A stretch of 44,002 nt of DNA from a virus. The DNA is taken from positions 1-44,002 of the IMG/VR virus record IMGVR_UViG_3300009034_000080. The stretch is one strand, 5' to 3'. Under the pieces are notes generated by a model. It had not been told where the DNA came from, did not search any database, and saw only the letters and a program-made list of their open reading frames with translations. The position numbers and the translations under genes are program-made. Below, piece after piece: positions 1,851 through 13,933 of this stretch (its first letter is position 1; each line of letters begins with the position of its first letter).

Positions 1851-3404
1851 TTAGGATATTGCCACCAAGTCCAAAGTGATGACCACGGGGTCGTTGCTCG
1901 CGTCCGGGCTGTAAGCCGTGAAGTCGGAATCGAAATCGTCGAACCTGCTTTCAGAGAAAGCAGGAGGTGCGGAGTTTTCGAAGATCACTTTCCCGTAGTT
2001 CATTTTCAGATAGATGGTTCCGAGCGAAAACACCCCCTCCATGCGCATGAACGATAGCGGCTCGGAAATCGCGCTATCGAAAAGTTTCTTGGTCTCGTCC
2101 GAGTATCTCGATTTCAAGTTGCCGCCCACCATTGCGAAGGCTTCCTTGATGAGTTTAATGGGGTACAGACTGTTACCTTGAAAAACCTCGACCTCGTTCT
2201 CCAAGCTGGCGGAGAACTCGCGCACCCCGAACTCGATCTCTGCCAGCAGGACCACAGCAGTCTCACCATCGGAGTACGTCACGTCAACAGTTCCAGAGAT
2301 GCCAGAGTCGTTCTGCTCGGTGAGGCTGATTGTACCGTTGCCCGTCCGCTGGCCTTCCGCAACTTTATCATCTGCTGCTTTGCCGGAATCCTTGAAGATT
2401 TCAACCTTATAGTCGCCCGCAACAGGCTCGGACAGCGTCACGTAAAGTTTGCCATCCGCATCCGTGTTCGTGTAGGGCACAAGTCCGTTCACCACCCAAC
2501 TCGCCAACTCGCCATCCACATCGCCCGACTCGGTCACGGCGGAAGTCCCGTCTCCGGGGTCTCTCGTCAGGGTGAACTTCTTATGGCAGAAAGTATCAAA
2601 CTGGGAAGGAACGCTGAGACCGGCGGAAGCACCCTCAACAGGCTCGCCCTTGGCAAGGAACTCAAGCTCGCACCTCAAGTGCGATTTCTCGGTCGAGATG
2701 AATCTGATCGTCCGAAGAACGCAATCCGCGCACTTGTACTGCTTGATTCCGTCTTCGAACCAAAGGGTAAGATACTTGGTGAAGGTGTTGTCGAGTTTCT
2801 GATACTTGAGTTGGCGCACCTCAAGGTTCACGTCGGTTTCGCCATCGGAATATGCCACAACCACCGAGCCGGAAATGCCAGAGTTATTCTTCTCCGTGAA
2901 GCTGAGGGTGCCATCGCCGACCAGCGTTCCTTCCGCAACCTTGTTCGCTTTTGCGGCATCTTTGTATATCTCAACCTTTCTCGTGCTCACCGCGTTAGTC
3001 AGGTCCGCGTAAAGTTTCCTGTTGGCATCCGTGTTATAGTAAGGAATCACACCCTTGAGAATCCACGATGAGAGTTCGCCGCCTACGTCGCCGGTTTCAA
3101 CGACATCTGAGACTTGCCCTTCCCCGTACACCGTTCTGAGAAGCAGAGGCGCGATCTTTCTCGTCAGGGCGATGGTGGCCGTGAAAGTCGGTGCTATCGC
3201 GGAGCGCAAGGCGGAATAGTGAGGCCTCGCCACAGTTCCGTAGGAGCCGGGGACCTCCTCCTTTTCCGCGTTCCACAACATCTGCCCGTTGCCCGCCCAC
3301 ATGGTTTCGATGGGCGAACTCGCCGCGGTGCCCTCGACATCCTGCACGCCTACCGCGAAACGGAATTTCTTTCCGCACCGGATGTTGTTCATTTGTTTCG
3401 CCAT
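1851..3404 (-). CDS. Major tail tube protein with two inserted modules
   Basis: The 517-aa protein has a tail-tube-like core, with a region around 210-258 (FEDGIKQYKCADCVLRTIRF, then a CELEFLAKG strand) typical of siphovirus tail tube proteins. Two copies of a roughly 92-residue module interrupt it at about 103-194 and 292-386; without them the protein is about 330 aa. The modules share ETGDVxGEL, NTDAxxKLY, KVEI(Y/F)KD and NSGISG-type motifs with a third copy in the connector gene at 4928-5203. The ATG at 3404 follows AAGGAG at good spacing. The modules are probably surface-exposed beta domains; this is inference. Confidence 0.82.
   Translation of the reverse strand: MAKQMNNIRCGKKFRFAVGVQDVEGTAASSPIETMWAGNGQMLWNAEKEEVPGSYGTVARPHYSALRSAIAPTFTATIALTRKIAPLLLRTVYGEGQVSDVVETGDVGGELSSWILKGVIPYYNTDANRKLYADLTNAVSTRKVEIYKDAAKANKVAEGTLVGDGTLSFTEKNNSGISGSVVVAYSDGETDVNLEVRQLKYQKLDNTFTKYLTLWFEDGIKQYKCADCVLRTIRFISTEKSHLRCELEFLAKGEPVEGASAGLSVPSQFDTFCHKKFTLTRDPGDGTSAVTESGDVDGELASWVVNGLVPYTNTDADGKLYVTLSEPVAGDYKVEIFKDSGKAADDKVAEGQRTGNGTISLTEQNDSGISGTVDVTYSDGETAVVLLAEIEFGVREFSASLENEVEVFQGNSLYPIKLIKEAFAMVGGNLKSRYSDETKKLFDSAISEPLSFMRMEGVFSLGTIYLKMNYGKVIFENSAPPAFSESRFDDFDSDFTAYSPDASNDPVVITLDLVAIS
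2247..2531 (-). repeat. Inserted structural module, copy B (tail tube)
   Basis: This encodes residues 292-386 of the tail tube protein. It begins ESGDVDGELASWVVNGL and ends near YSDGETAVVLLAE. Its final part (SGISGTVDVTY, DGETAVVL) is closer to copy C in the connector than to copy A in the same protein. Confidence 0.85.
2823..3098 (-). repeat. Inserted structural module, copy A (tail tube)
   Basis: This encodes residues 103-194 of the tail tube protein. It begins ETGDVGGELSSWILKGV and ends near YSDGETDVNLEV. It is alignable over its full length with copies B and C, with clear divergence, so it is an old or fast-evolving duplication. Confidence 0.85.
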
Positions 3405-3407
3405 TCC

Positions 3408-3881
3408 CTACTCCTTGAAATTATGCTCTTCCAGTTCTATTACCAGTTCGCAGTAGTGGCAGAACACTTCGCTGAGGAACCTGTAACCGAATACCCTGCC
3501 CTGCACCGCGGCCTCAACCTCAGTCTCACATACGTCCCAAATAGTCAGGTTGTTCCTGAACGCCGTCCGAATCTTGTCTATCAAATCGTTGAACTCCGCC
3601 GTGGAATCGGGGTCGTCCTTGAATTCGAGGAAACCTCTAACGACTATCGGCATCCTCGCCACGAATCGAGGCCGAACCTCGACCCCTTCGGAAAACGACT
3701 CTCGACCCACCAGCCAGGTATTGACTTTGTATTTCTGCGAGTTGATCCTTTTCGTGAACAGCCTGTTGAACTCTGCTGGGTCTATAGTGAACTTATCCCG
3801 GATGTACACATTCTCTATCCCGTCTACCGTTTCGAGCAATGTCTTAATTGCACTGAGCTTCGTCTGCGTGTATTCGGACAT
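3408..3881 (-). CDS. Putative tail terminator / tail completion protein
   Basis: The 157-aa protein sits between the HK97 gp10-like gene and the tail tube gene, where tail terminator proteins (lambda gpU type) are found. It has an N-terminal helix (SAIKTLLETVDGIENVY) and then alternating strands including VARMPIVVRGFLEFKDD, as in that fold. It ends in TAG, and only one codon (GGA) separates this from the in-frame ATG of the tail tube gene. The assignment is by position and general pattern, not by strong motifs. Confidence 0.6.
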   Translation of the reverse strand: MSEYTQTKLSAIKTLLETVDGIENVYIRDKFTIDPAEFNRLFTKRINSQKYKVNTWLVGRESFSEGVEVRPRFVARMPIVVRGFLEFKDDPDSTAEFNDLIDKIRTAFRNNLTIWDVCETEVEAAVQGRVFGYRFLSEVFCHYCELVIELEEHNFKE

Positions 3882-4412
3882 CTATTTGTTTACCTTCTGT
3901 ACGAACTTGTCTATATGAAACTGGAAGATGCGTCCAACCTTCGCCAAAGTGGGGCCAGGCTTGAAGGTGTCGCGGAACATATTGGCGGCTGTGACGCCCT
4001 GTGCGGCTATTTTCTTCATGACAGCAAAGGTGAGCCTTTTCAGCAAAGTCGCCGGTTTGATTTTCCTGCCTTTGGCCGCTTTGCGGATTCCTGCCACGCC
4101 TATCTTTTTCTTGACCCATGCGTGAATCGGTTTGAAGGGCGGCAGTGTTGCACGGGGCTTCTGGCCTTCCTCGACGTATGTTCCGTACTCGAGCGGGCTG
4201 GACACTCTGCCGTACATCCCGAAACCGCTGCCCCGGACTTCCGACGCTATCGACTTTCTCAGTTTACCCGTGTTAACCGGGGAACGTTTAGAGACTTCGC
4301 CCTCCAGCATCAGGCCGGACTCCCTGTAGGCGTCCTTGAGCGCATTGAAGAAAGGGGGTCCTGCCTTGCCAGTCGCTATCAGGCCCTTGGTTTCCACTTT
4401 CACACTGATCAT
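3882..4412 (-). CDS. HK97 gp10-like head-tail joining protein
   Basis: The 176-aa protein carries the family signature of a helix with RSPVNTGKLRKSI followed by a strand and YGTYVEEG, as in HK97 gp10-type proteins that act at the head-tail interface or tail completion. The C-terminal 60 residues are lysine-rich and helical. The ATG overlaps the TGA of the upstream connector gene (ATGA), so translation is probably coupled. Confidence 0.75.
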   Translation of the reverse strand: MISVKVETKGLIATGKAGPPFFNALKDAYRESGLMLEGEVSKRSPVNTGKLRKSIASEVRGSGFGMYGRVSSPLEYGTYVEEGQKPRATLPPFKPIHAWVKKKIGVAGIRKAAKGRKIKPATLLKRLTFAVMKKIAAQGVTAANMFRDTFKPGPTLAKVGRIFQFHIDKFVQKVNK

Positions 4413-5377
4413 CTGTTCAACCTTCTATGGAATATTTTGCTTTCGCCCCATGCGAAGTTTACATCAATATCTTTTTCCGCCGATGCCGGTTTGTCAAGTG
4501 CGGCCACGAAAGATTCGAACCTTGCCAAGGATTCCGCGGCCAAGTCTCTATAGATGGTAGACTTGTCCTTGTAATCCACTACGACGGCCTCCATGCTCGG
4601 CTCTACTGTGTTGGCATAAAAATAGGAGAGCACGTGCGCGCAGAAATGCGCCGTCAAGTAGCAAAAAGCTGGTACGTAAGAACTCGGAATGTCTGTCAGG
4701 TGTTCAAGGTCTTTCACCCTGCGCGTGAATGTGATTCGAAATGCCTCGGAAACAGTTGCATAGAACAACAGTCTGTCCCCGTCCTCCGTTCTAACTGTCT
4801 GGACGCCATCGGGTATGTCGAGGTACGTTCGGGGATTATTATCAATCGGAGACTCAACCGTGATCAATTCGGAGAATTCGTCGTCCCAGTCTGCGGGCAG
4901 CTTGTAGGTGTCTGTGGGTCCCCATGTCAGAACTACAGCAGTCTCGCCGTCGTTGTACGTGACATCGACAGTGCCGGAAATACCCGAAGAATTCTGCGCG
5001 GATAATGTCAATGAGCCATCTCCGACTTTCGTGCCCTCCGCCACCTTCGAGGTTTTGGCGGAATCTTTGAACACTTCCACCTTGCGCGTTCCAGCGACAT
5101 CGGACAGGGTCACATAGAGTTTGGCGTTTGCATCGGTGTTGACGTAAGGCTTCACGCCGCTGAGAATCCAATTATCAAGCTCGCCGTCGACGTCGCCCGT
5201 TTCCTCAAGCGTCGCGGTGCTTTCGGTGCCCTTGTCGGTTTGGTAGAAAGGGAGCCGCTTGTTGTAATACTCCAGAGCATCCTCCAAGCAGGAGTCGAGG
5301 TCCGCTGCGTCCAGCTTTGAGGAAGTATCCTTGATTATCGTCGCCACCTTCCTCAATATGATGCTCTTATCCGCCAT
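4409..5377 (-). CDS. Head-tail connector (adaptor) with one inserted module
   Basis: The 322-aa protein starts with helices (residues 1-45, ending ALEYYNKRLPFYQ) and continues after residue 150 with DTYKLPADWDDEF and IDNNPRTYLDIPD, a pattern seen in gp6-type adaptor proteins that sit under the portal. Residues 59-150 are a copy of the module also found twice in the tail tube protein. Removing it leaves about 230 residues, close to an ordinary adaptor. The ATG at 5377 overlaps the previous gene's stop. The identification as connector rests on gene order and the flanking motifs. Confidence 0.65.
   Translation of the reverse strand: MADKSIILRKVATIIKDTSSKLDAADLDSCLEDALEYYNKRLPFYQTDKGTESTATLEETGDVDGELDNWILSGVKPYVNTDANAKLYVTLSDVAGTRKVEVFKDSAKTSKVAEGTKVGDGSLTLSAQNSSGISGTVDVTYNDGETAVVLTWGPTDTYKLPADWDDEFSELITVESPIDNNPRTYLDIPDGVQTVRTEDGDRLLFYATVSEAFRITFTRRVKDLEHLTDIPSSYVPAFCYLTAHFCAHVLSYFYANTVEPSMEAVVVDYKDKSTIYRDLAAESLARFESFVAALDKPASAEKDIDVNFAWGESKIFHRRLNR
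4928..5203 (-). repeat. Inserted structural module, copy C (connector)
   Basis: This encodes residues 59-150 of the connector. It begins ETGDVDGELDNWILSGV and ends at YNDGETAVVL. The flanking host sequence appears to resume directly with a tryptophan-proline segment, so the copy looks like a clean in-frame insertion into a loop. Confidence 0.85.
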
Positions 5378-5776: not shown

Positions 5777-5828
5777 CTTGCCTGCCCCTTGAATCCGCTC
5801 CGAGAAACGAACTCAAGGGGCAGGCAAG
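5777..5828 (-). terminator. Perfect 16-bp stem-loop between structural genes
   Basis: The arms 5777-5792 and 5813-5828 are exactly complementary (CTTGCCTGCCCCTTGA on the plus strand) with a 20-nt loop. The stem starts 13 nt after the stop of the decoration-type gene. No T-run follows on the minus strand, so it is not a classical intrinsic terminator. It may protect or process the mRNA 3' end and so separate high capsid expression from connector genes. Confidence 0.7.
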
Positions 5829-5841
5829 CCGCCCCCTATTG

Positions 5842-6273
5842 TTAGTTCTCTTTCCGATACTTCAGTATTATCTCGACGGCCTTTACGGGATCGGCCAAGC
5901 CCGTGCCTTTTGCGTCGAACTTGTACGCCAGTACCTCGCCTTTGGCCAGCCATCTGTTGGCCTTTGTCGTGGAAACGGTCAGTGCCACTGGCACCCTTGC
6001 GACCCAGTCGACGCCCGCCAACATCTCAGGCCCGGTAGCGACTTCCGTTGTGCCCGTACCAGCAGTACCGACATTCATAATCTTGGCGGTGAAGTTGTTG
6101 GTGTCGACCCCCGTTATTGCGGTGTCGGGTATGACGTTGACTGCGACTATCTCCATGTCCTCTTCAGCCTTGAAGAGCGGCCACTGCTCATCGGTGCCGA
6201 TTACTGCGGCCTTCGGAACCCGGAACAACTTGATGTGCCTGCCGGGTATGTCGGCTAAAAACTGTTCTCCCAT
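5842..6273 (-). CDS. Putative head decoration protein
   Basis: The 143-aa product follows directly after the capsid gene, the usual place of a decoration or stabilising protein. It is beta-rich with many small residues (VGTAGTGTTEVATGPEM) and no cysteine. A longer open frame runs up to 6402, but the ATG at 6273 has a textbook GAGGAGG ribosome binding site, while the longer form overlaps the capsid gene and has none. The decoration role is inferred from position. Confidence 0.6.
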   Translation of the reverse strand: MGEQFLADIPGRHIKLFRVPKAAVIGTDEQWPLFKAEEDMEIVAVNVIPDTAITGVDTNNFTAKIMNVGTAGTGTTEVATGPEMLAGVDWVARVPVALTVSTTKANRWLAKGEVLAYKFDAKGTGLADPVKAVEIILKYRKEN

Positions 6274-6344
6274 GAAAGAAACCTCCTCAAACTGACTTAC
6301 TCCGAGGCGGGGCCGGTTATACACCGGCCCGTCCTCGTTCACTA

Positions 6345-8738
6345 TTATCCAGCAACAACGTGCTTGTAGAACGGCCTGTAATCGAGGACCGCATAACCCC
6401 AAACGTGCCTGATCTTATATGTTATCTTGTCCGAGTTGAACACGGAACCGACGGTCGGCTGATCCTGAACGAAGAGTTCGGGCTCCTGCCTGCCGTTCCA
6501 GAATCCAACCTCGATGGTCGGGATCATCTTCGGATCAGCGACGGCCACCCAGTCTGTCGCGTCCGTCCAGTAGGAGACTTGTATGTATTCCACCCCGTAC
6601 TTCGCCCTGTGTATGTTCGGAATGGTCGCGTCCTTGTTGGAAGTCACAACCACTGGTGAGGCCGTGAGTTCCCACGCCTCGTCTTCCAGTTCCGGCGGGA
6701 CGATGATGTACTTAGGCGCGTTCACGACGCCCAGCCGCTCGGCGCTGATGCCATACGGTGACTGCTGCATCATCAGCTGGCGGGTAGCATTGAGCGCGTC
6801 GGAAGCGAGCGCCGTGGAGCCGAGGTTGCCGTGAGTGGCGTGGAAGAGTGTTACCGTGTCGTAGATAGCGGGGTTGTCCTTGAGTACATTGAAGATAGTT
6901 TGATAAAGAGTCAGCACGGCGGCCCGGCCCATCTTCTGCGGAATTCTTCGCAGAGCGCCGAGATCGTCGTTGGCTATCATCTCTATCGTCAAGTCCTCAA
7001 GCCCGCCTCTCTTCTGAACCTTGTACTTGGCTTCCTCGTCGGTGGGCGATGTCAGGCTTTGATAAGTATCTCTCTCACCAACCACATCGAGCAAACCGTA
7101 TCCGCCGTAACGGACTCTCGGGTTATCCCGGAAATCTTTTATGTTCCCGATGTCGGAAACAATCAGACGCCATGTGTTCAGGTTCTCAAGAGAGTATTCC
7201 CTGATCAACTGGCGATGAATCGAGTCGCCCAGAACCTGCGGCCAGTCGCTCGTAGCAAGAGACTCAAAAAGCTGCTTTCGTTTCCCTTCCGAGAGGAAGG
7301 TGGGAGCGAACTGCGCGGACTCAGCGAGTATGTCAGAGGGCTCAACATCCCTGCGGCCAGTGATAACTTCGAATGCATGGCGAATGCCCCTGAACGCGGG
7401 AACGCCTTCAATCTCCGACTCCTGCTGGAACATTGCGTCCATCGCTTTGTTCCACTTGTCCTTCTGCGATTCCGTTATTTCCGCCCTTGCGCTCGCCACA
7501 CCGGCTCCCTTCTGGTTGAAGAGCTCCGCGAGAACCTCGCGCTCGGTCTCTATGGTCTTCTTGGCGTCTTCTTCAGACATGCCTTCGCACTGGTTCGAGA
7601 GCTTCTTCTGAACAGCGGAAGGAAGACCGGACTCGGTCACGAGCGACCTCACCGCGTTTTTCCTTGCGGACTCGGTGACGTCGGTGAGGGTCTCCGCGCT
7701 CTTCTCGACCTGCTTGCTCAACTCCTCAATTTTCTTTGTGAGCTCAGCAACCTTTTCCGATTCTTGCGCTTCGGGTTTCGGTTTCGGTTCCGGATCCGGA
7801 TCCGGATCTGGATCCGACTCCTTCTCCTTTCGCTCTTCCTCTTCCTTCGCAGCTCGTCTCGGATAAGGGTATGGATACTTACCCACCGCCGGGTAAGGGT
7901 ACTTTGCGAGCTTCTGCAGCATGTCGTCTATCTGCGCGACCGCGTTGTCCATCTGCCCGTCTTTGATCAGATCACGGAGCGAACGCAGGAAAACTGAGAA
8001 GTTGACGGCGTTGGCCTCCTCTACCTTTCCGTTCTCTTCTATCAGTTTGTCCAGCAGTTCCGCAACCTTCGCCTCTTCCGAAAGCTCCTCTTCCTTCAGG
8101 GATTCGAAGAGCTCTTGGTCGAGGTAGCCACACAGCTTGTAAAGCTGTTTCCCAAAATCTGCCATTGAAAATCCTCCAGGTTTCCTTGAGGCCACCAACC
8201 GCATCACCTTGCCTCCGGCCGCTGGCGACGTGACTGCGGTCACCTCGTTTAACTTGTGCAACTCCAAAATCTTGCGGATCATTTTGCCTTGGTGCAGCAT
8301 GTCCGCGGATTCGCCTTCCCCGTCGATGGAGAAACCGATTATGTCAGGCTTGCCCACCTCCCATGCGTTGAGGAGCTTTATCCTGAACCACTCCTCAATC
8401 ACATTTAGATTCGCGGTCAGCCCTTCTCTGGATTGTCCCTGCCAATTGTACTTCTCGAACTGTACATTGTTGAAGAAGCCAACCAGATTCTTTGTGAGTC
8501 CTTCAGGTTGACTCTTCCGCACTTTCAAGGGCAGGTGATCGAACTTGCCCTCGAACTCGTAAGCGAAGCACTTGGCATCCTCGAACAAATGCTTCGCCCT
8601 GATCAAGACCGCCGCCGGGTAATAGCGGTCATTCAGGGACAGTCCAGCTTCAATCATCACGACTTTCCAAACTTTGCCCTTGCCACCTCCTTTCACAGGC
8701 TGAACTATTCTCGCGCCTTCCAAAAATTTTTCTATCAT
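6345..8738 (-). CDS. Prohead protease-scaffold-major capsid fusion
   Basis: This 797-aa polypeptide contains three parts normally seen as two or three genes. Residues about 1-190 resemble a phage prohead serine protease, with a candidate histidine in FDHLPLK (about 68) and serine in GFSIDGEG (about 137). Residues about 192-420 are a charged, coiled-coil scaffold with low-complexity linkers (YPYP repeats about 278-294; DPDPDPDPEPKPKP about 308-321). Residues about 420-797 look like a major capsid protein (RIPQKMGRAAVLTLYQTIF, YIIVPPELE, TIEVGFWNGRQEPELFVQ). The ATG at 8738 overlaps the upstream stop (ATGA). An in-frame start at 8165 with its own ribosome binding site could give a scaffold-capsid product alone. 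Maturation by self-cleavage is inferred. Confidence 0.82.
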   Translation of the reverse strand: MIEKFLEGARIVQPVKGGGKGKVWKVVMIEAGLSLNDRYYPAAVLIRAKHLFEDAKCFAYEFEGKFDHLPLKVRKSQPEGLTKNLVGFFNNVQFEKYNWQGQSREGLTANLNVIEEWFRIKLLNAWEVGKPDIIGFSIDGEGESADMLHQGKMIRKILELHKLNEVTAVTSPAAGGKVMRLVASRKPGGFSMADFGKQLYKLCGYLDQELFESLKEEELSEEAKVAELLDKLIEENGKVEEANAVNFSVFLRSLRDLIKDGQMDNAVAQIDDMLQKLAKYPYPAVGKYPYPYPRRAAKEEEERKEKESDPDPDPDPEPKPKPEAQESEKVAELTKKIEELSKQVEKSAETLTDVTESARKNAVRSLVTESGLPSAVQKKLSNQCEGMSEEDAKKTIETEREVLAELFNQKGAGVASARAEITESQKDKWNKAMDAMFQQESEIEGVPAFRGIRHAFEVITGRRDVEPSDILAESAQFAPTFLSEGKRKQLFESLATSDWPQVLGDSIHRQLIREYSLENLNTWRLIVSDIGNIKDFRDNPRVRYGGYGLLDVVGERDTYQSLTSPTDEEAKYKVQKRGGLEDLTIEMIANDDLGALRRIPQKMGRAAVLTLYQTIFNVLKDNPAIYDTVTLFHATHGNLGSTALASDALNATRQLMMQQSPYGISAERLGVVNAPKYIIVPPELEDEAWELTASPVVVTSNKDATIPNIHRAKYGVEYIQVSYWTDATDWVAVADPKMIPTIEVGFWNGRQEPELFVQDQPTVGSVFNSDKITYKIRHVWGYAVLDYRPFYKHVVAG
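7790..7817. repeat. GGATCC-type hexanucleotide repeat coding a DP linker
   Basis: About four tandem copies of a six-base unit (GGATCC with one C to T change) encode an Asp-Pro repeat in the scaffold part of the capsid fusion. A nearby stretch (7865-7905) encodes repeated YPYP. Both are probably flexible linkers. Confidence 0.6.
8163..8177 (-). promoter_or_regulatory. Internal ribosome binding site and ATG within the protease-capsid gene
   Basis: On the minus strand GGAGG (8173-8177) precedes an in-frame ATG (8163-8165) by 7 nt. The sequence is CTGGAGGATTTTCAATG. It falls exactly where the protease part ends and the scaffold begins, as in lambda C/Nu3, and would give a 606-aa product. Confidence 0.65.
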
Positions 8739-11700
8739 TTCTCTTCTCCCGGAGCCGGTTTGCTTCTCGCCACTTTCCAGAAATCGGCGGTCGGGCTTTC
8801 CCTCTCGAAAGTCCAAACGCCCTTGAACTTTTCCCCCTTGAACCGAATCTTCATGAATACCGGAGTTTTTTCCAACAGCGTCATTTCGCCTTCATCAATA
8901 CTCTCAATCCATGAGCCGCGCTCCTTGTGCGGGTTGCCGACCTGTCCGGGAACGATAAACCCTTCGGCCTTTTCGTCATGATCGTATTCCGGCGCTGAAA
9001 AATGGCCTGATATGACTTCGGCTTCCAACGGGTCCAAGTCGAGTTCGAAATGCTGCTTCTTTCCGTCAAGCAGGAACAGGTCGAAATGCCACTCCGTCGC
9101 CCCTGCCCTTTTCTTCTCACCGACTTTGGAATACCAGTGGTATTTCAAGGCGAAATTCTTGTTTGCCGCCTCCTGAACGGGGATTTTGATCTCGTCTTTC
9201 TTTATCAGTTCGACAAGCTCGTCCCGAATTAGCAGCGCCTCTTTCGCGGTTTTGGCATTCCAGTATCTCAGAGGCTCCGGTATCGCTTTTCGAATTTCTC
9301 TCGGAAGCGCCGATTTGCCCAAAGGCGGCAGTCGCTTCTTCTTGACTGCCTCGTCTGAAAGGATGTAGGGCATCTGCACCACGGGCTTGATGGCGAACCA
9401 TCGAACCCCAATCGTTTTCTCTTCTGAGGGCGGTAGGATTTTCTGTTCGAGAAGAGGGCATATCTCCCGCTTGACTTCCACCACGAAGCTATCGTCGAAG
9501 TATTTCTGCGGCAGCGCCTCCAGCAGTTCGTGTTTGATGCCCTCCCGCTCCAACTCTTCATCCATTAGAGACTCCGCCAGCATCAAAAGTCTCTTCTCGG
9601 TCTGGCTCAGTTCTCTTGATTCCCCGAATTCTTCAGCGCGTAATTGTCTGAACACCACCCTGTAGTTCAGACCTTTGCCGTGGAAAAAATACTCATGTGA
9701 CCAAGGCTGCTGAAAGCCGTACTCCGCAGTGCCTTTATCAGTGATCACAAATACACCAGGGTAACGTTTCGTCGCTCCGACTTCGCCCGGCTCCACAACG
9801 CCTTGGAAGTCAAGCCATTCAATCGGCTCGGGCGCTTTCTTCTGTGTCATGATGGTCACGTTGACGGGTTTCACCGCACCTTTCTTCAGGCGCTGCGCCC
9901 ACTCGCCGGTCTTCCAGTTGATCTTGAAATACTTACCGGGGTTCCTTTCCTTCTCCCGCGCATCCTGTAGAGTCAGCACGGGTTCCTTCACCACTCCTTT
10001 AATGAGATCATTCAGCGTCCACCCAATCAGGGTTTCCTTCTCCACGCTCTCCATCCGCAAATCCGCATGGCAGCTCTTGCCCCGCCAGTGGTGCTGTGCA
10101 ACGAACTTGTAAGTCTTTTTCTCGTCAGGATAGCGTAGATAAGGGTCTTCCTGCTCCGCTAATAAAATTTCCTGCACCCTGTTTCCCGCAATCGTTTTTG
10201 CGTATGCGGGGTTGCGAATGCGGCGGAAATAATGAACCCTGCTCTTCGTCACGTTCGCTTTGAATTTCTTGACTTCGGACTCCCAATCCGTTTGGTCGTT
10301 AGTGCAGACGACTATGGTACTGCATTTATTAGCCAACTTACCCAAGAGACTGACTATTTGCTCCCGAGTCGGTTCCTTTTGTCTAAATTCTTTTTGCAGC
10401 AGTACGGAGTTGCGAGTTTTGTATTCGGTGAATATCCTGCTGTAAGGCGAACCGCCTGCCTGCGGAGGGTCGAAGAAGATCACGTCGGCCTCGGGAATCT
10501 GCATCTTGAATGCATCATTGCAAGTTACTATGCCCTTGCCGCCCACCTGCTCGACCAGCCTGTTTACTTCCGAGATGGAAGCCCTGAGCATTTGTCTGCA
10601 TTTGTCCTTGTCGTAATAATAGTAGTACGCATCGCGCATACTTGAGTGCCTGCCACCGAAGAACCTGCCGAGAAATGCAACCGCGACTGCGCGGGCAGTA
10701 AGCATCTTCTTTCCGCTGAAACAAGATTCGATATGCAGCATCAAACCGTCCACCCACTCGCGTATGGATTTCGAAACGGGGTGCATCGCTTTGTGCTGGT
10801 TGGTAAACCATCCACGCTTTTCCTTTACGGCCAGCAGAGCGTCGACATCTTCCGCGTTGAGAATTTCACCCTCGAAGATGCCCTTCGAGAACCTGTAGGC
10901 GTAAGGATTGACGTCGTTGGCGGTCACCTTGAGTCCCTTGCGGGCGGCGGCCATCAAAACGGCACTCGTGCCACACATTGGATCAAATATGGTTTTCGCC
11001 GTTGCGGGTAGCCTATTGACAATCGCGTTTGCGAAAGGCCTCTTGCTGAAGGAATAGGCGACTTCCTGAATTTCTTCGTTGGAGGCTTCGATGACTTCGA
11101 AACTTTTCGACTCAAGCAGTTTCAGGTTCTTTATGATTACCTGCGGGCCCCGTATATATTGGTAGCGCCGGGGTTTGTGCCACGGCCAGAACTTGACGAC
11201 GTCGTATGCCCACAACTCTCTCTTGTCAGGCCACCACTTCTTACGTTCCGCATCCGATATTCGATGCTTGTTCCTGAGCGTCTCGAATTCCTTCAAGCTG
11301 ATTTTATATGCGGGTCCGAGCCTGATTGTGCCGTACACCAAATCGGAAGCCAGGAACAGCACCTTGTTGAGCGCATCGAACTCTTTCGACTTCACGACTA
11401 TTTTCTTTTCGCCGTTGTAAATGAGTTCGCCGTGCGGCGGAGTTAAATACATCGCGTCCTTGACGGCGTGGGTATTAACCGAGAGCAAGTCGCCGTCCTT
11501 GGGTATGATTATCTCCTTGTTCGGAAATGCGGTTTCAAGCAATCCAAGTATTTTACGATCATCCATCTCGACGGGTCCCTTGCCCTGATGGATGAAGACG
11601 GCCGTGTGGATCCCTTGGTTCTGACACCACTGGAGCTGTTGCTTCATGGACGCATGCCCGACTCGCTCCTCTTCCGGTCCAGTTCGAAAAATGGGCCTCG

Positions 11701-13933
11701 TTACTCCGGAGCCGTCGCCCACGTAAATATCGACATCCTTGAGTTCCTCTTCTTTTATTTCCGCAACGTTGGGGAAGAATCCGATGACGTACTTGTTCTC
11801 ATCGGCAGCGATGGAGATCTTGTAGCCGACCGTGGGAGCGACGGTTGAAAGCTTGACTTTCACGACTTCCAGCTTGACGCCTTCGACAACCGGGTACACC
11901 CCTCCCGGGCGGATTATCTTGCGCTCCTTCATCGGATACTTTTCGGGCGAAAGCTTCTCGGAGGTTTCTTTCGTCATGTAGACGGGAACGCTGATTTCTT
12001 CGCCCTCGAGCCCTTTCACATGGTCGGGGTGTGCGTGCGTCAAGGCGATCCATTTGGGCCGCAACTTGGCGAGCTTTCCCCTCAGGTTTTCTCCGAAGTC
12101 CAACAACCCCTGAGAGCCGTCATATTTGACCAGCATACCCGAGTGGAATTCGTGCCCCTCGGCTTTCTCCTCTATCATGCCGCGGGTGCCCAAGAAGACG
12201 AGGTCGACTCCCGAAAAGGATTCCGAGAAGTTCTGCCTGCCCTTCTTCCGGCCCAGCAATCCCGCATCCTTCGCTATCGCCTCCGCCTCTGCAATCGAAC
12301 TCGGCTCCTTCCGCTCCGGCACTTTCCCGTCGAAGACCGGTTCGTAGAACCGCCCGCTTTTGAATCCCGTTTCCGGGTCTTCGTAAATGTTGAAGGTGTG
12401 GAAGGTCACTCTGAAGACGTCGCCGGGGTTCAGCTTCTCGGTCGTGGCATAGGAAGTTCCCGATTTCGAATACTGCTCGCCTTTGATTTCGATCTTGGCC
12501 TTCGGGTCCAACTGTTCTTTGGGCACTCGAATGGCGTAATCGTAGTTGTACACCCCCTTTGTGGCGGTCTCGTTGCGGCGGTAGACGATTCCGAAGGCCG
12601 ATGCGTATTTCTTTATCTTCGACATGACCGTTGAAGTGCCCGCCAGAGAATACTTGCCGTCCACCTGCTTCACGATAGCGCCTTCGGAACCCTCCGCCTT
12701 GACTACCTTCTCCAGGTGCTTCTTGAGTTCCGCGGGCGTTCGGGCGACCAAGCTCGGGGCTCTGTTGAGCATGGATTTTGTTTTCGTGAACCCGAGTTCC
12801 GATTTCGCAAATGGGAATTCATCAAGAAGCTTCTTCCGCTCGATCCAAGACCTCTCATGAAGGTCTTCGCCATCCTGCCACAGGATTTCGAAGACATTGG
12901 CCACCACCCATTGCTCGTCGATAGGCTCCTTGCCGAGCAGCAAACCCGCGAGCTCTTCCCGCGGCTGATGTTCACCATCGAGCCAGTATTCCAGTTCGGA
13001 ATCAATTATGAAAGAGGTGGGCTTCTTAATCGCTTCCAGTTCCGCCACAAGTTGAGGGAGCCTGTCCGTCACGTCCGAGGCCCCGTCCGTATATGCCTTC
13101 GCCTTCTCGCCGTCTTTGAACATCACGATTCTGAGGCCGTCGTACTTCTCCTCGACGACCAGCGGAAGCAAGTCCTTGATTTCCTCTACTGTTCCGTCGA
13201 ACCGCCAGTCGTTTTCGAAATCTTTCCGCAACACGACCGCGGGGAGCGAAGTCTTCAATGAGTAGAAGAAACGGAACATCTTCAACTCATCTTCTTTCTT
13301 GGACTGCTCCGCCTGCCTCAGTGTGGTTTCCTTCTCAACCTTTTCTGCAGCAAGTATCACGCTCATCTCAGGGTTGATGCGCTCGAACTTCTGGCGGTAG
13401 AGGGGGATGGCATCCGTGAAGGGGCCGTGGTAGGTGTCGTAGCAGAACTGCAGCCTCCCCCGCACGTTCGCGTTCCTGAACTGCCGTTCGATTCGGAACT
13501 CTATCGGTCGACGGATTGCCAAAGGTGTGTCTTCAGGCAGGCGAATCAGGAAATCGACGTCGTTGGCCGATTCGCCGTTGTTGACGATGCCTCCGGTCAG
13601 GTAGACAGTGACGTCCTGGGTGTAGAAATCTTTGAATTCGGGCAAGTCCTCGAGCGTGATCAGATTCCCTTCCGTCCTTTCACCCAATGGGTGAATGGGC
13701 GCGAGCGCTTCCTTGATGCTGATGGGCGAGGCGTGCTCGTCTTTCTTCTCAGCTTCCCGCCTTACTAATTCCGACACCACCAAGTCGTGAACTTTCTTCA
13801 CGAGCTGAATGTCCAAAGACTTGTCCGCCTTCTTCCAGCCGTTGAAGAGCAGGTGGGTGCGGAAATGAAGCCCGGACAGTTCTTCCCTGTCGACTTTCCT
13901 CAATCGCTCCGCTGTGACATCAACGAGTTTCAT
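8735..13933 (-). CDS. 1732-aa fusion: nucleotidyltransferase-like, DNA ligase, MBL, methyltransferase, two phosphoesterase-like domains
   Basis: Seen in order: residues 100-185 have GG (114-115) and DVD (125-127) as in Pol-beta-type nucleotidyltransferases. Residues 225-540 are an ATP-dependent DNA ligase with KYDGLR (K263 as adenylation lysine), DSELE, FEILW, EGAIVK (417-422) and SKIKKY, then an OB-like part. Residues 575-825 are a metallo-beta-lactamase fold with HAHPDH (633-638), D740, H760 and H782. Residues 935-1260 are a methyltransferase with DPMCGTS (984-990) and DPPQ (1155-1158) in place of the common DPPY. Residues 1272-1432 and 1592-1712 resemble the LigD 3'-phosphoesterase (HADLR at 1289; WHFDLF at 1615; final GVWTFERE). 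It is coupled to both neighbours (TAATG, ATGA). DNA end repair or virion-borne processing is inference. Confidence 0.85.
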   Translation of the reverse strand: MKLVDVTAERLRKVDREELSGLHFRTHLLFNGWKKADKSLDIQLVKKVHDLVVSELVRREAEKKDEHASPISIKEALAPIHPLGERTEGNLITLEDLPEFKDFYTQDVTVYLTGGIVNNGESANDVDFLIRLPEDTPLAIRRPIEFRIERQFRNANVRGRLQFCYDTYHGPFTDAIPLYRQKFERINPEMSVILAAEKVEKETTLRQAEQSKKEDELKMFRFFYSLKTSLPAVVLRKDFENDWRFDGTVEEIKDLLPLVVEEKYDGLRIVMFKDGEKAKAYTDGASDVTDRLPQLVAELEAIKKPTSFIIDSELEYWLDGEHQPREELAGLLLGKEPIDEQWVVANVFEILWQDGEDLHERSWIERKKLLDEFPFAKSELGFTKTKSMLNRAPSLVARTPAELKKHLEKVVKAEGSEGAIVKQVDGKYSLAGTSTVMSKIKKYASAFGIVYRRNETATKGVYNYDYAIRVPKEQLDPKAKIEIKGEQYSKSGTSYATTEKLNPGDVFRVTFHTFNIYEDPETGFKSGRFYEPVFDGKVPERKEPSSIAEAEAIAKDAGLLGRKKGRQNFSESFSGVDLVFLGTRGMIEEKAEGHEFHSGMLVKYDGSQGLLDFGENLRGKLAKLRPKWIALTHAHPDHVKGLEGEEISVPVYMTKETSEKLSPEKYPMKERKIIRPGGVYPVVEGVKLEVVKVKLSTVAPTVGYKISIAADENKYVIGFFPNVAEIKEEELKDVDIYVGDGSGVTRPIFRTGPEEERVGHASMKQQLQWCQNQGIHTAVFIHQGKGPVEMDDRKILGLLETAFPNKEIIIPKDGDLLSVNTHAVKDAMYLTPPHGELIYNGEKKIVVKSKEFDALNKVLFLASDLVYGTIRLGPAYKISLKEFETLRNKHRISDAERKKWWPDKRELWAYDVVKFWPWHKPRRYQYIRGPQVIIKNLKLLESKSFEVIEASNEEIQEVAYSFSKRPFANAIVNRLPATAKTIFDPMCGTSAVLMAAARKGLKVTANDVNPYAYRFSKGIFEGEILNAEDVDALLAVKEKRGWFTNQHKAMHPVSKSIREWVDGLMLHIESCFSGKKMLTARAVAVAFLGRFFGGRHSSMRDAYYYYYDKDKCRQMLRASISEVNRLVEQVGGKGIVTCNDAFKMQIPEADVIFFDPPQAGGSPYSRIFTEYKTRNSVLLQKEFRQKEPTREQIVSLLGKLANKCSTIVVCTNDQTDWESEVKKFKANVTKSRVHYFRRIRNPAYAKTIAGNRVQEILLAEQEDPYLRYPDEKKTYKFVAQHHWRGKSCHADLRMESVEKETLIGWTLNDLIKGVVKEPVLTLQDAREKERNPGKYFKINWKTGEWAQRLKKGAVKPVNVTIMTQKKAPEPIEWLDFQGVVEPGEVGATKRYPGVFVITDKGTAEYGFQQPWSHEYFFHGKGLNYRVVFRQLRAEEFGESRELSQTEKRLLMLAESLMDEELEREGIKHELLEALPQKYFDDSFVVEVKREICPLLEQKILPPSEEKTIGVRWFAIKPVVQMPYILSDEAVKKKRLPPLGKSALPREIRKAIPEPLRYWNAKTAKEALLIRDELVELIKKDEIKIPVQEAANKNFALKYHWYSKVGEKKRAGATEWHFDLFLLDGKKQHFELDLDPLEAEVISGHFSAPEYDHDEKAEGFIVPGQVGNPHKERGSWIESIDEGEMTLLEKTPVFMKIRFKGEKFKGVWTFERESPTADFWKVARSKPAPGEEK

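Follow-up and report, generated by a model that had tools for sequence, protein, structure and literature searches.

A protein module of about 92 residues occurs three times in a viral DNA of 44,002 nucleotides (IMG/VR virus record IMGVR_UViG_3300009034_000080, positions 1 to 44,002; hereafter the window), twice in a probable tail tube protein and once in a neck adaptor (connector) protein, and is on balance best explained as a promiscuous exterior decoration domain that is inserted at beta-hairpins and loops of its carriers. All three copies are encoded on the minus strand, in frame with the carrier gene. Copy A (2823-3098; 92 amino acids (aa), residues 103-194) and copy B (2247-2531; 95 aa) are the first and second inserts of the probable tail tube protein of 517 aa (carrier 1; 1851-3404, minus strand), and copy C (4928-5203; 92 aa) occupies residues 59-150, termed site 1, of the neck adaptor/connector of 322 aa (carrier 2; 4409-5377, minus strand). 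A previous reading of this DNA, made from the letters alone and hereafter called the sequence-only reading, had described three copies of 92 residues at these positions, and they are confirmed, except that copy B is three residues longer than copies A and C, with short extra loops. The pairwise identities, which that reading had proposed to compute, are 60-68% in global alignments (56/92 for A and B, 59/92 for A and C and 63/92 for B and C). When copy C is used as a query against the window's own record of approximately 44 kb, three places are detected in total, which are copy C itself, copy B (E 5e-36) and copy A (E 2e-35). These E-values exclude chance similarity, and the three copies are homologous. 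The carrier sequence resumes on both sides of each copy in host-only alignments, as had been noticed from the sequence.

Copy C is almost certainly a true insertion. The 322-aa carrier is assigned to the SU10-type neck adaptors through its orthologues. The window protein itself gives no hit to PF24175 (SU10_adaptor) in a Pfam scan, and the connector orthologues of two other viral contigs, L087 and L005, score 27.9 bits (above the cut-off of 27) and 21.9 bits (below it) respectively; the module-bearing proteins of L102 and L094 score above the Pfam cut-off. The module is located at residues 59-150 in the window's connector, and at residues 103-194 and 104-195 in the orthologous connectors of L004 and L005 respectively. 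Because these positions differ, the window provides an empty site for L004 and L005, and these provide an empty site for the window. The L087 connector matches the host-only profile over its full length (E 9e-29) and contains no module. A tblastn search with the L087 protein detects the connector of the cultured Microcystis phage Mae-JY22 (E 4e-20, 99% of the query covered), which matches the host profile at E 6e-19, and the module is not detected in the whole Mae-JY22 record at E<=0.001. The Mae-JY22 region at 6029-13782, in which the head, neck and tail genes are similarly ordered, contains this connector orthologue but no module. The sequence-only reading had held that insertion would be ruled out if the module were an integral part of all related tail tube and connector proteins; this is not the case for the connector, as the L087 and Mae-JY22 proteins lack it. 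In the more distant SU10_adaptor proteins of L102 and L094, the module is located immediately before profile positions 67 and 65 respectively, a place that, as read from these profile positions, would be near the window's connector site. When the connector alone is used as a query, no relatives are found in the viral_contigs database. A search of solved structures with the L087 connector gives only ribosomal S1 at E above 0.5, and one with the L102 protein gives no match.

The 517-aa carrier is probably a tail tube protein, as suggested by its genomic place, with a tail-terminator-like gene on one side and the tape measure region on the other, and by homologues that have the same gene order in L004, L005 and L087. 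Its match to the tail tube family PF18906 (Phage_tube_2; E 0.0077, 16.3 bits) is below the cut-off of 27 bits. The L004 and L005 homologues contain both modules at the window's sites. The copy B site is empty in the homologues of L087 (host-profile E 5e-38) and L085 (E 9e-12), in which the sequence runs straight through this site, and one copy is detected in the L091 homologue, of which the host match is weak (E 9e-4). Copy B is very probably an insertion. The copy A site is occupied in all six tail tube homologues (window, L004, L005, L085, L087 and L091), most of which were found through the module itself, and query A7, used in 294 genomes for a tail tube homologue free of the module, gives no match. 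The claim of an inserted module is proved for copy C and well supported for copy B; for copy A we infer an insertion, which is probable.

The module is also inserted in a third family of phage proteins. L004 and L005 contain two further, more divergent copies in a protein of 484/489 aa encoded just after the tape measure gene; the window record stops before the expected place of this gene. Among eight aligned homologues of this post-tape-measure protein, both module sites are filled in two, site 1 only in one (L064) and site 2 only in three (L012, L013 and L063), and two (L068 and L079) contain no module. Outside this alignment, proteins of L087, L088, L090 and L091, which are taken by eye as homologues, contain two copies each according to hmmsearch. 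It is also observed that L068 (6133-7440, minus strand) and L079 (5595-6902, minus strand) have a different long insert at site 2, which has a carbohydrate-binding look by eye only; site 2 behaves as if it accepts alternative domains. In these two Planctomycetota-sampled loci, a cassette of portal, scaffold-like, capsid, module-bearing connector-like and tail-like genes lies beside an arginyl-tRNA-synthetase-like gene (L068 945-11207; L079 417-10614; all assigned by eye). No terminase is noticed in the fetched stretches of L068 and L079, and this cassette is possibly a domesticated phage cassette.

The layouts of these three families bear on the question of whether the module is ancestral in its carriers and has been lost in some relatives. 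The presence of copy A in all six tail tube homologues is consistent with such ancestry, with the reservation already given that these homologues were found mainly through the module. In contrast, the two positions in orthologous connectors, the two module-free connectors and the four layouts in the post-tape-measure family argue against it. Ancestry followed by loss is highly improbable, and is already largely refuted for copies B and C. The module is either absent from orthologous carriers or located elsewhere in them, as is expected of a promiscuous insert, for copies B and C and for the third family, but not for copy A.

The module is predicted to be a compact autonomous all-beta domain. 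AlphaFold2, run on 19 copies, gives an eight-stranded model in which no helix reaches four residues (predicted local distance difference test score (pLDDT) 97.7, predicted template modelling score (pTM) 0.89). The model of the full tail tube protein is poor (pLDDT 37.6), and the modules are its best-modelled part. No Foldseek match in PDB or BFVD reaches E<=0.001. VIA-align ranks a Wzc segment highest (Z 6.2, root-mean-square deviation 2.9-3.0 over 79 aligned residues), and its other best matches are to a flagellin (Z 5.4), to a C2 domain (Z 5.2) and to FlgL (Z 4.8). With Z values under 8, these matches may only reflect a common arrangement, and absence from this list is not evidence of a new fold. 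A search of solved structures with the A1 profile gives no match. In Pfam, the window's tail tube protein matches the Ig-like family Big_1 with 15.7 bits, below the cut-off of 34.9, and one of 11 module copies matches Big_1 (E 1.3e-4). An intein was considered and rejected, as no intein model is among the Pfam scan matches of the module. A literature search of open PMC papers yields nothing that describes the module by title or abstract, and the module appears to be a new sequence family. Filtering of 216 matches, some of them fetched twice, leaves 97 non-redundant copies, which come from 54 loci. In these copies, D4 (97%), G16 (95%), A56 (97%), S74 (95%) and G78 (97%) are near-invariant, as are W12, G58 and G75, and position 88 is Asp or Glu in 95%.

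The sequence-only reading had proposed a database search for the module in other phages, and the module is found there. A scan of viral_contigs with the broad alignment (A11) gives 19 viral loci, two of which are the L004 and L005 contigs; the narrower queries A1, A5, A6 and A7 give L004 and L005 only, and A12 gives only the L004, L005 and L087 contigs. Twenty of the 21 viral records scanned whole (the window, L004, L005, 17 others and Mae-JY22) contain one to five copies, and Mae-JY22 contains none. In genome_contigs, query A1 finds nothing and A5 finds three loci. A tblastn search of 50,697 cultured phage records with copy C gives no match at E<=1, and the consensus query gives six cultured phage records, with E-values of 0.4 or higher and coverage below 80% in each. 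A match in Gordonia phage Daredevil spans two coding sequences and was dropped as chance. A plasmid search gives three weak records. It is also observed that a viral protein of 706 aa (L100, 8215-10332) contains two module copies between long serine-rich linkers.

The module is also present in bacteria, of which two phyla (Planctomycetota and Nitrospirota) were sampled. It is detected at E<=1e-5 in 45 of 294 genomes from the phylum of the Planctomycetota metagenome-assembled genome (MAG) L012 and in 2 of 198 from Nitrospirota, the phylum of the Nitrospirae MAG L014. A Pfam search of 18 module-bearing open reading frames (ORFs) identifies three flagellins, one FG-GAP protein, two proteins of the Big_5/Big_7 type, one VWA/Flg_new_2 protein, one DUF6754 protein and one ABC_toxin_N protein; the other nine have no family at E<=0.01, and some of these are of phage type. 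The flagellin carriers contain two to four module copies each, inside the flagellin interiors between the conserved ends. An adjacent repeat of the same type in the FG-GAP carrier, identified by eye, has no module, and the VWA carrier is described as VWA/SLH-type and S-layer-like. The identified bacterial carriers are mostly of exported type. The earlier description of a spreading domain is strongly supported by the different sites in orthologues and by the many unrelated carrier proteins; among phages, the module is located at several sites in at least three structural families, which are the tail tube protein, the SU10-type neck adaptor and the post-tape-measure protein. The location in flagellin interiors and along the tail tube, together with tolerance at many sites, would also be explained if the module were a shield or spacer, that is, a bulky neutral domain that has no ligand and hides the conserved surface of the virion or flagellin from recognition. 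However, the conservation over 97 copies exceeds what a spacer needs, though part of this conservation may serve the fold, and this explanation is rather unlikely.

As a promiscuous decoration domain, the self-folding all-beta module would interrupt exposed loops or hairpins of its carriers in frame, with the carrier fold undisturbed. Because it would fold by itself at a hairpin or loop, it would be tolerable at many places. Each particle would have many copies of it on the outside of the tail tube and neck, and such exterior display is likely from the types of carriers and from published analogues. According to the available parts of the paper on the SU10 adaptor, this protein consists of a helix bundle, a dock domain for the long tail fibre and an embracing loop (PMC9509320); the connector sites may be in the region of this dock, as suggested by their place between the helical ends. 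The most likely selected role would be a weak, multivalent attachment, by which the particle is held to a polymer of the host surface or of the host's environment. That attachment is the main role is a tentative proposal, made because of the analogy with the carbohydrate-binding modules of lactococcal 936 phages. As far as the available parts of the source describe them, these phages carry such modules on the neck, the major tail protein and Dit, and host-cell binding is shown for two (PMC6669499). The likeness is that accessory domains are present on the neck and tail protein and as an internal insertion in Dit, and vary between related phages. The modules of the 936 phages, as described there, have BppA-type and other known folds of carbohydrate-binding modules (CBMs), whereas the present module is one new sequence family, and the copy on the 936 tail protein is a C-terminal extension made by frameshift, whereas the window's module, known from sequence, is internal in several proteins.

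The tail tube copies would be explained differently if the module were a structural latch, which clamps adjacent subunits, stabilises the neck and tail, and binds nothing outside. In the available parts of the papers on phage YSD1, an inserted beta-sandwich, termed domain 2, is located on the outside of the tail tube and girds the hexamer (PMC7385642, PMC8718954), and copy A, which follows a segment read by eye as the helix of the tube protein, is at a similar place. As far as these sources describe it, the beta-sandwich of the YSD1/chi tail tube protein is, like the window's module, internal to the protein, and this likeness is one of placement. However, the module is also present in unrelated carriers, which include neck and post-tape-measure proteins as well as flagellins and an FG-GAP protein, and a specific latch is unlikely to travel in this manner; copy B can also be absent. 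A latch is thus unlikely, though less so than a shield.

To spread, the decoration domain would first be inserted illegitimately, as a rare event, and its copies would then undergo homologous exchange. Exchange was analyzed by resampling codons at fixed protein sequence with the codon usage of each phage (2,000 draws). In L004, tail tube copy 2 and the connector copy have 47 of 68 synonymous codons in common (null 25.3, p 0.0005) and an exact run of 38 nucleotides (null 11.8, p 0.0005), and tail tube copies 1 and 2 share an exact run of 32 nucleotides in both L004 and L005 (p 0.0005). DNA has been exchanged between genes in L004, and between the tail tube copies in L004 and L005. In L005, tail tube copy 2 and the connector copy share 28 of 59 synonymous codons (null 21.5, p 0.04) without a long run. 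In the window, A and C share 31 of 59 (null 23.8, p 0.03) and A and B share 27 of 55 (null 22.1, p 0.10), without a long run. Because eight pairs were tested, the results with p values of 0.03-0.04 fail correction. The sequence-only reading had noticed that copy B is closer to copy C than to copy A in the final third. This is correct for the protein (24/32 for B and C, 22/32 for A and B and 19/32 for A and C), but not for third codon positions (0.38, 0.44 and 0.34 respectively), which are near saturation between the window's copies. Differently flanked copies reach a DNA identity of no more than 77%, when pairs above 98.5% are left out as presumed repeat fetches of one place, and a recent transposon with sharp DNA copies was rejected on this ground. 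In the approximately unbiased (AU) test, the six-row grouping 'all TTP1' gives p 0.036, and no donor history is drawn.

These DNA data also bear on whether the module is a selfish coding element, which would spread for its own sake through in-frame insertion and conversion. It would in this respect be like the coding repeats of some bacteria, such as the palindromic elements of Rickettsia. The presence of whole copies in unrelated genes, the different sites in orthologues and the DNA exchange between L004 genes are consistent with such an element. However, the DNA identity of at most 77% between differently flanked copies, with the same pairs left out, and the near saturation of third positions in the window argue against it, and the identified carriers are mostly of virion or export type, which suggests that selection acts on the protein. 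A selfish element is improbable.

Several observations weigh against the decoration domain or parts of it. No alignable tail tube homologue without copy A is found; Mae-JY22 has a syntenic protein of 316 aa without the module, but hmmsearch and hhalign detect no similarity between it and the tail tube protein (hhalign probability 0.7%, as compared with 0.1-0.3% for nine other Mae-JY22 proteins). The sequence-only reading had proposed modelling to see whether the module projects outward, and the tail tube model, at its pLDDT of 37.6, is too poor to show this. Pfam, PHROGs and PDB sequence searches with the module yield no match above threshold to any family, known CBM families included. Among the bacterial carriers, the DUF6754 protein and the nine of 18 ORFs without a family are not proven surface proteins. 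The exchange between genes suggested by the sequence-only reading is borne out for the tail tube and connector genes of L004, but not for copies B and C of the window, which share 27 of 63 synonymous codons (null 25.7, p 0.41) without a long run and show no excess at silent sites. The copy trees are mostly unsupported, with AU p values of 0.07-0.11 for four named three-row clades.

Decoration domains of phages are already known, and the module would work like them. It is a new sequence family, and what is unusual is that this one family is inserted internally, at several sites, in proteins of the neck, of the tail tube and of the post-tape-measure type, and has carriers in both phages and bacteria. 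The Ig-like domains of phages (Big_1/Big_2; lambda gpV, T5 pb6 and YSD1) are similar in that small beta domains recur on different structural proteins, but those of lambda, T5 and YSD1 are C-terminal as far as the available sources describe them, whereas the window's module is internal. Such Ig domains are reportedly promiscuous among phages, according to Fraser et al. The modules inside three Planctomycetota-sampled flagellin-type proteins resemble the variable region of flagellin and FlgL in placement, with VIA-align Z values (5.4 and 4.8) that are under 8. The clean empty sites are an unusually direct record of domain transposition, and the gene-to-gene exchange in L004 indicates that virion genes with no other relationship can become linked in their evolution through repeated modules. 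It is conceivable, though doubtful, that the module is a shared surface currency, such that phages expose on their particles a domain that, at least in Planctomycetota, is also present on bacterial flagella and in S-layer-like proteins and lipoproteins, possibly binding the same extracellular polymer or each other, and that recombination keeps the virion copies alike, so that a binding face common to the neck and tail evolves jointly in both. Because the module is present in flagellins and other surface proteins, the hypothesis of a shared ligand is testable with one small domain.

The genes adjacent to the carriers contain no module. The gene at 3408-3881 (minus strand) encodes a probable tail terminator of 157 aa, assigned by gene order, and that at 3882-4412 (minus strand) encodes an HK97-gp10-like neck/tail completion protein (PF04883, E 5e-7; phrog_5, E 4e-10). 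The capsid protein of 823 aa (6345-8816, minus strand), which also lacks the module, matches PF25209 (Phage_capsid_4) at residues 520-818; the capsid domain is confined to this C-terminal part, and the product may be a fused precursor. The gene at 8735-13933 (minus strand) encodes a protein of 1732 aa with ATP-dependent DNA ligase, beta-lactamase-superfamily and D12-class adenine methyltransferase domains. An inverted repeat of 21 nucleotides with 90% complementarity and a 10-nucleotide loop is located at 5777-5828, just outside a gene for a 122-aa protein, and is possibly a terminator.

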